A model generated the notes under the pieces. The model searched no databases and was not told where the DNA came from. It was given only the letters and a program-made list of their open reading frames with translations. From the NCBI RefSeq assembly GCF_003443615.1, contig NZ_CP031967.1:1178001-1242000 (forward strand): DNA of 64,000 nucleotides, written 5' to 3'. Below, in pieces: positions 52,073-52,606 of the stretch (the stretch's first letter is position 1; each line of letters starts with the position of its first letter). Both the position numbers and the translations under genes were made by a program. Source of the DNA: Alteromonas sp. BL110. Its GTDB lineage: Bacteria; Pseudomonadota; Gammaproteobacteria; Enterobacterales; Alteromonadaceae.

Positions 52073-52401
52073 TGGAGCGGGAAACGAGATTCGTCAACTG
52101 GCCGACACTCGGTCGCGGGCCCTTCAAAGGGTCGCATTGATACGGTAATCGAAGTCTGTTACAAAAATAGAAGTGTAAAAATTTGGAGCGGGAAACGAGA
52201 TTTGCCAACTGGCCGACACTCGGTCGCGGGCCCATCAAGGGGTCGCATCAATACATCTGCAAATGTTTATATTTTCGTGAGGTTTTAAAATTTGGAGCGG
52301 GAAACGAGATTCGTCAACTGGCCGACACTCGGTCGCGGGCCCTTCAAAGGGTCGCATCAATACATCTGCAAATGTTTATATTTTCGTGAGGTTTTAAAAT
52401 T
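52073..52401 (-). repeat. Three tandem tRNA-Gly-derived repeats (rtT-like)
   Basis: Copies at 52073-52137, 52184-52248 and 52293-52357. Read leftwards each ends in the last 21 nt of the adjacent tRNA-Gly, including TCGTTTCCCGCTCCA. The first 44 nt of each copy are not tRNA: two short hairpins, CCCT(TTGA)AGGG and CCGA(GTG)TCGG. Units are spaced 111, 109 and 109 bp; the linker after copies two and three is identical and also borders the first real tRNA. Copies one and three are identical over 65 bp; the middle copy differs at four positions. They lie downstream of both tRNA genes in the direction of transcription, as do the tyrT repeats of E. coli. Confidence 0.85.
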
Positions 52402-52477
52402 TGGAGCGGGAAACGAGATTCGAACTCGCGACCCCGACCTTGGCAAGGTCGTGCTCTACCAACTGAGCTATTCCCGC
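52402..52477 (-). tRNA. tRNA-Gly(GCC), copy 1
   Basis: 76 nt with encoded CCA. Leftward sequence starts GCGGGAATAGCTCAG, anticodon loop TTGCCAA (anticodon GCC), T-loop TTCGAAT, acceptor end TTCCCGCTCCA. Identical to the second copy. Location by orn matches the glyVXY cluster of E. coli. Confidence 0.97.
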
Positions 52478-52530
52478 ATAGAGTCGATGCTGTGCATCTT
52501 TTGATATCTGATTAGATTCAGATTTAAATT

Positions 52531-52606
52531 TGGAGCGGGAAACGAGATTCGAACTCGCGACCCCGACCTTGGCAAGGTCGTGCTCTACCAACTGAGCTAT
52601 TCCCGC
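52531..52606 (-). tRNA. tRNA-Gly(GCC), copy 2 (promoter-proximal)
   Basis: 76-nt gene identical to copy 1 and 53 bp upstream of it in the direction of transcription. Anticodon GCC, CCA encoded. The spacer between the two tRNAs differs from the spacer between the repeats. Confidence 0.97.

Follow-up and report, generated by a model that had tools for sequence, protein, structure and literature searches.

Layout of the tRNA-Gly array

The window, by which we mean the whole 64,000-nucleotide stretch of the Alteromonas sp. BL110 genome that was analysed, carries on its minus strand two tRNA-Gly(GCC) genes of identical sequence and, after the second of them, three direct tandem repeats (here called units) that each end in a copy of the tRNA 3′ end. 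The features of the locus, in the direction in which the tRNA genes are read, are as follows.

53340-54383, plus strand: rsgA, adjoining orn
52708-53355, minus strand: reading frame of orn (oligoribonuclease) from the ORF list, directly upstream of the tRNA genes
52633-52667, minus strand: putative promoter of the tRNA operon, found by eye (TTGCGT, 16-nt spacer, TAAAAT, discriminator GCGCACC)
52531-52606, minus strand: first tRNA-Gly(GCC) gene (ARAGORN; RF00005, 70.4 bits)
52478-52530, minus strand: spacer between the tRNA genes, without a unit in the window; several relatives have a unit here
52402-52477, minus strand: second tRNA-Gly(GCC) gene (ARAGORN; RF00005, 70.4 bits)
52293-52401, minus strand: unit 1, 109 nt, with the last 21 nt of the tRNA as its 3′ end
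52335-52355, minus strand: hairpin 1 of unit 1 (GCGACCC..GGGCCCGC), a remodelled anticodon-arm region in the predicted fold
52322-52332, minus strand: hairpin 2 of unit 1 (CCGA-GTG-TCGG), the T-stem insert (covariation; R1 match, 71.4 bits)
52293-52313, minus strand: tRNA 3′ tail of unit 1, an exact match to the tRNA
52184-52292, minus strand: unit 2, 109 nt, with the linker of unit 1 and a tail exact over 19 nt
52213-52223, minus strand: hairpin 2 of unit 2 (R1 match; covariation)
52073-52183, minus strand: unit 3, 111 nt, with the last 65 nt of unit 1, a different linker and a 21-nt tail
52102-52112, minus strand: hairpin 2 of unit 3 (R1 match; covariation)

The frames that we take to be orn and rsgA were recognised from their sequence together with position and synteny, not by a family search. 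The original prediction had located the array at exactly these coordinates, and its two identical tRNA-Gly(GCC) genes and three repeats of roughly 109 bp were recovered, the repeats measuring 109, 109 and 111 nt. It had placed the last 21 nt of the tRNA at the end of every unit, which holds for units 1 and 3 and not for unit 2, the exact tails being 21, 19 and 21 nt long in transcription order. The first 53 nt are common to units 1 and 2 and the last 65 nt to units 1 and 3, in agreement with the identities first described once the copies are numbered from the left. With up to three mismatches allowed, the window contains five copies of the 20-nt tRNA 3′ end (the two tRNAs and the three units), against a mean of 0.01 in shuffled sequence.

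Only the two real tRNAs of the array were called by ARAGORN and RF00005; the units were not. The array is also overlapped by mechanical ORFs of the window's ORF list. A promoter with a GC-rich discriminator had been proposed ahead of the operon. TTGCGT-16-TAAAAT with GCGCACC is plausible in this role when judged by eye, and the stretch is kept upstream of the first tRNA-Gly gene in many relatives, but a simple promoter scan did not list it. A scan of the minus strand listed no intrinsic terminator behind the array in the window.

Relation of the units to tRNA-Gly

Twenty loci were read from the first search. In some species the units are full-length and tRNA-like. That at locus L012 aligns with tRNA-Gly from first to last base, with insertions in the anticodon arm and of 14 nt in the T-arm, and an internal unit at locus L008 aligns as tRNA-Gly with arm deletions. 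In shorter units the D-arm is missing, the anticodon arm is remodelled and the same T-stem insertion is present, in the order GCGA[hairpin]CCAGUU..GAAUCUCG; the insert is a 4-bp hairpin (hairpin 2). The existence of full-length tRNA-like units in relatives indicates that the unit is a remodelled tRNA-Gly rather than a tRNA end attached to foreign sequence, and we dropped the idea of a foreign 44-nt part when such units turned up. What had been described as a 44-nt non-tRNA part is tRNA-derived, as is best seen in full-length copies such as that at L012. Judged by alignment, then, each unit is a remodelled copy of tRNA-Gly that has a short hairpin breaking up its T-stem and is continued by the 3′ end of the tRNA.

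Some tRNA-Gly units at loci L106, L108 and L129 have two or more successive hairpins at the T-stem position. A pairing of TTGGCAA of unit 2 with the anticodon loop was noticed by eye only; it is not conserved in the other units and was set aside.

Covariation in hairpin 2

Hairpin 2 occurs in several versions, among them CCGA/UCGG, CCGG/CCGG, CAAC/GUUG and CAGC/GCUG. When 21 units are aligned by sequence only, the paired cells make up 95.2% of 84, with 16 double changes, and the covariation score is 0.576, compared with at most 0.114 when the partners are slid. Over 76 distinct rows, 97.0% of 303 cells are paired with 98 double changes, and the score is 0.777 against at most 0.062; this larger alignment was fitted to the model and its pair counts lean towards structure, a tendency from which the 21-unit alignment is free. 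In both cases the cells count sequences rather than events. Identities between regions of the units are biased, the units having been chosen by similarity to the hairpin core. Support for hairpin 1 is weak, with a mean z of -1.02 over 109 units, in some of which hairpin 2 was misplaced by the analysis.

Within what covariation is able to establish, the pairing of hairpin 2 is under selection, compensatory changes keeping it intact. Because the pairing is conserved while the sequence changes, the units look like structured RNAs. Had they been absent from close relatives or randomly mutated there, the original prediction would have failed; they are instead found in at least 44 of the 59 Alteromonas genomes, with a covarying hairpin 2.

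Distribution of the units

The Alteromonas count is made up of at least 38 genomes, among the matches listed, with a bit score above 38.5 (what the tRNA itself scores), and of six more (G020, G023, G048, G051, G052 and G055) in which variant units were read, that of G020 without a tail. The other 15 genomes were not counted as having units, their tRNA-Gly loci having been read in part; no units were seen at the tRNA-Gly loci read in four genomes (G011, G014, G015 and G016). Beyond the genus, a search of 196 genomes of the family found units in 8 genomes of four other genera. A search of 394 genomes of the order found them outside the family in G037 and G303, which belong to one family, and in G582, of another; with G525, where units were found by pattern, this makes four genomes of two other families in all. 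A strict pattern applied to 369 genomes of the class matched only G000 and G001, both Alteromonas, and all 12 named stretches with an exact pattern are from Alteromonas. Viral contigs were searched with one exact pattern, and phages and plasmids by BLAST, in each case without a match.

Throughout the 59 genomes the window-type hairpin core, with zero or one mismatch, occurs only at tRNA-Gly arrays, and matches elsewhere with two mismatches are not commoner than with a reversed control pattern. Units lie between and behind tRNA-Gly genes, and several genomes also have them at another tRNA-Gly locus, which adjoins tRNA-Cys (and tRNA-Leu). Internal units are present in the A. genovensis and A. 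hispanica genomes. The window and its near relative G017 do not agree in the number of units or in where they lie. The tail is missing from 9 of 56 hairpin-bearing stretches, mostly the last units of an array.

The longest array seen (L086; G071:C14:98300-100900) has 12 consecutive units of 136-137 nt behind one tRNA-Gly. At L143, in G303, there are five terminal tRNA-Gly units of 137-138 nt; all of them begin with a strong intrinsic-terminator-like hairpin and keep hairpin 2 and the tail.

Predicted folding of internal and terminal units

Whole units were compared with dinucleotide shuffles, using 112 distinct units of 80-165 nt from 59 listed loci, a set that excludes the full-length tRNA-like units and in which the 12 units of L086 are not independent. 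A z of -2 or below was reached by 12 of 18 units that precede a tRNA-Gly (mean -2.43) and by 6 of 11 that precede a tRNA-Cys (mean -2.11), that is, by 18 of the 29 units before another tRNA, and by 5 of 83 units classed as terminal (mean -0.42); the 83 include one at L100 that precedes tRNA-Cys despite its class. All three units of the window are terminal and, with z from +0.3 to +0.8, fold no better than shuffles.

Folding of the best internal units, with z values as low as about -5, yielded a model with a hairpin in the linker and a closing helix, GAGYGYGAAA/UUUCCCGCUC, whose 3′ strand is the tRNA tail; the model was drawn from 7 chosen internal units, with 5 terminal units chosen alongside. 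In 16 internal units of two families, 96.5% of 144 cells of this helix are paired, compared with at most 60.4% for slid partners. There is one double change, the 3′ strand hardly varies, and 100 of 500 column shuffles reach the observed pairing. When tails were swapped in six Gly internal units, 5 to 19 of 34 or 35 foreign tails did at least as well as the unit's own, while for the internal unit of E. coli (described below) and for a tRNA-Glu unit none of 35 foreign tails was as good in either case. The closing helix is absent from the predicted folds of the window units.

For internal units of part of Alteromonas and of one other family, this model predicts a closed tRNA-like shape whose closing helix has the tail as one of its strands. 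The three terminal-type units of the window, which have no closing strand, may be partly decayed amplification products.

Comparison with rtT and other known RNAs

The resemblance of the array to rtT at E. coli tyrT, which the original prediction had pointed out, proved closer than first stated. In E. coli K-12 a single unit lies between tyrT and tyrV, three more follow tyrV, and all four terminate in the final 19 nt of tRNA-Tyr. Most of what is known of the rtT RNA comes from the E. coli tyrT operon (1991), and an RNA product released from the operon transcript is reported for it, both as cited in PMC4986893; the same paper describes RtT-family RNAs at tRNA-Asn and tRNA-Lys genes of Actinobacillus. 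Links of rtT-like sequences to BIME repeats and a tandem-GA motif in RtT are mentioned in PMC2965389 and PMC7657543, respectively.

Like rtT/RttR (RF00391), the Gly array has units in a tRNA operon that each end in the 3′ end of that tRNA. In our own alignment, which is not a published definition, the E. coli unit between tyrT and tyrV reads as tRNA-Tyr with hairpins inserted in the T-loop (the alignment of rttR is ambiguous); on this reading it is tRNA-derived with hairpins in the T-arm, as are the Gly units of relatives. This internal E. coli unit has a fold z of -3.5, and the rtT tail can pair as the 3′ strand of a closing helix; such a helix is predicted for the internal Gly units of relatives too, though the tail swaps did not bear it out there. 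The Gly array differs in its tRNA-Gly host, in the site of insertion (the T-stem rather than the T-loop) and in its shorter units. It is built like rtT, yet does not match the RtT model: RF00391 gave no match at the gathering score (45 bits) in the window, none up to E = 10 around the array and 0 in G000.

In E. coli the unit between tyrT and tyrV that carries the tRNA-Tyr tail lies at L184 380-588 (NC_000913.3:1287329-1287537). The RefSeq features consulted give the name rttR to a single copy, after tyrV, and the E. coli annotation places the small tpr gene inside rttR. The tRNA-Gly genes of E. coli lie in the order rsgA-orn-glyV-glyX-glyY, making orn a conserved neighbour of tRNA-Gly; glyV, glyX and glyY are 36 and 35 nt apart.

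Apart from tRNA, no Rfam match at gathering level was found in the window or in 10 related loci. The bacterial Y RNA YrlA has a tRNA-like module; its model (RF02553) reached 38.1 bits against a cut-off of 69, over the two real tRNAs and not the units, and was rejected. Searches of a largely open-access literature turned up no account of an array like this one, either at tRNA-Gly genes or in Alteromonas.

Similar units at other tRNA genes

All 71 tRNA matches of the window's genome, the one genome surveyed in this way, were examined for further copies of their 3′ ends (up to three mismatches in 18 nt). Three such copies lie behind the Gly operon, two behind a tRNA-Phe and one behind a tRNA-Leu. 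Arrays of this kind prove to occur at other tRNAs as well (Phe and Leu in this genome, and Lys and Ser by RtT matches in other Alteromonas). Each tRNA-Phe unit combines an intrinsic-terminator-like hairpin with a T-arm interrupted by a hairpin plus CGCGTTAC, and Phe-type units occur in 6 of the 40 genomes searched. The Phe and Leu units resemble the Gly type in their altered T-arm (a hairpin plus CGCGTTAC in Phe, a hairpin plus CCAGTTAC in Gly) and in keeping the tRNA tail. Unlike the Gly units of the window, every Phe or Leu unit starts with a terminator-like hairpin.

In the window's genome, the tRNA-Phe gene is followed by two identical units of 119 nt (L211 1260-1573; G000:C1:1421242-1421555), and the tRNA-Leu gene (L233 477-706) by a single unit, which combines a terminator-like hairpin and an altered T-arm with a tail that matches the tRNA exactly over 18 nt.

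Units behind the last tRNA that start with a terminator-like hairpin were found in G303 (tRNA-Gly), in G003 (tRNA-Ser) and, in the window's genome, at tRNA-Phe and tRNA-Leu. With the hairpin at their start, such units would depend wholly on read-through for their transcription. Terminal units may be little-expressed products of amplification, above all where they lie behind terminator-like hairpins (G303 and the Phe, Leu and Ser arrays).

The RtT model matched in 12 of 40 genomes at E ≤ 0.001, with 4 above the cut-off; the window's genome was not among them. Seven of the 12 were read; their matches lie at tRNA-Lys, -Ser, -Tyr or -Glu/Ala, and the units end in the tail of the host tRNA. The RtT-model units of Alteromonas and its relatives resemble the Gly units in this tail and in their order (CCCGAAGGG-like hairpin, GA, second hairpin, tail); they are 146-182 nt long, and we note a likeness to the Gly type, not homology. 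The four tRNA-Glu genes of the window's genome (L228 903-1673) are separated by similar spacers of 155-157 nt with no recognisable tail copy.

Discussion

The reading that we prefer, and to which we give roughly even chances, is that of an rtT-type array built on tRNA-Gly, whose units are structured and tRNA-derived and whose internal units are released as small RNAs. The units would be transcribed together with the tRNAs, and the internal ones, predicted by folding to be well-folded tRNA-like structures, would be freed as small structured RNAs by processing of the operon transcript, by analogy with what is reported for rtT. The interrupted T-arm would stop the copies from acting as tRNAs, and unequal crossing-over at the common tail could shift their number. 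More speculatively, the released units might target factors that handle tRNA precursors or 3′ ends. The original prediction had small RNAs that could compete for processing enzymes; the window's own units fall in the poorly folding class. Weighing against the rtT-type reading are the folds of these units and of most terminal ones, the outcome of the column shuffles and tail swaps for the closing helix, the units that read-through alone would transcribe, the hairpin-bearing stretches without a tail, and the loci in G011, G014, G015 and G016 where no unit was seen.

The main rival, which we consider possible if somewhat doubtful, is that the units are dead tRNA copies. A duplicated tRNA would survive only with its T-arm destroyed, because tRNAs that were only half functional would be toxic to processing and translation; crossing-over at the tail would then multiply a sequence without function. 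Much of the distribution suits this explanation: the differing copy number and position in G017, the 12 consecutive units in G071, tails that match the host tRNA and are lost mostly from last units (9 of 56 stretches), units beyond terminator-like hairpins, and the failure of most terminal units to fold better than shuffles. It accounts for changes in copy number and for the identity of the tails, but not for the covariation, since hairpin 2 should not stay paired in neutral copies while both of its sides change, as it does in several genera and two further families. The 18 of 29 units before a tRNA with z ≤ -2 likewise argue against it.

We regard as rather improbable a second alternative in which the units act in cis, as spacers that steer processing, folding or termination of the operon transcript, with no free RNA acting in trans. 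The units read do lie inside or behind tRNA operons, the internal ones fold best, and several carry terminator-like hairpins; however, pairs of tRNA-Gly genes also occur without a unit between them (the window, G011), and the E. coli glyVXY genes are too close together for such units to fit. Integrating elements could also be considered, tRNA 3′ ends being common integration cores and many attachment sites running, like the conserved segment here, from the T-arm to the 3′ end, but units that were leftover attachment sites or decoys are disfavoured and highly improbable given the tRNA sequence kept upstream of the junction, the full-length tRNA copies, the regular tandem arrays with a covarying hairpin and the lack of matches in viral contigs (one exact pattern) and in phages or plasmids (BLAST).

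Returning to the rtT-type reading, we put forward tentatively, and as unlikely on present evidence, its extension to a general gammaproteobacterial class of T-arm-interrupted tRNA repeats. These would have arisen repeatedly (at Gly, Phe, Leu, Lys, Ser, Tyr and Glu tRNAs), reusing the host tRNA 3′ end as a structural strand and being released with the tRNAs. If such a class exists, its members would be tRNA-mimicking RNAs, produced in step with the transcription of tRNAs and under stringent control.

rtT at E. coli tyrT and RtT RNAs near tRNA-Asn and -Lys were already known; what is added here is an array on another tRNA, tRNA-Gly. An array that the RtT model misses, with a covarying hairpin, rtT-like placement and an interrupted T-arm, poses a comparative problem, namely which of its features are selected, for which Alteromonas species that have units and others that lack them offer natural contrasts. 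The array also illustrates how tRNA copies become other structured elements.

Elsewhere in the window, a frame that resembles a TonB-dependent receptor by eye (48925-51397, minus strand) is broken into two that overlap (50909-51397 and 48925-50985), pointing to a frameshift or an error in sequencing.
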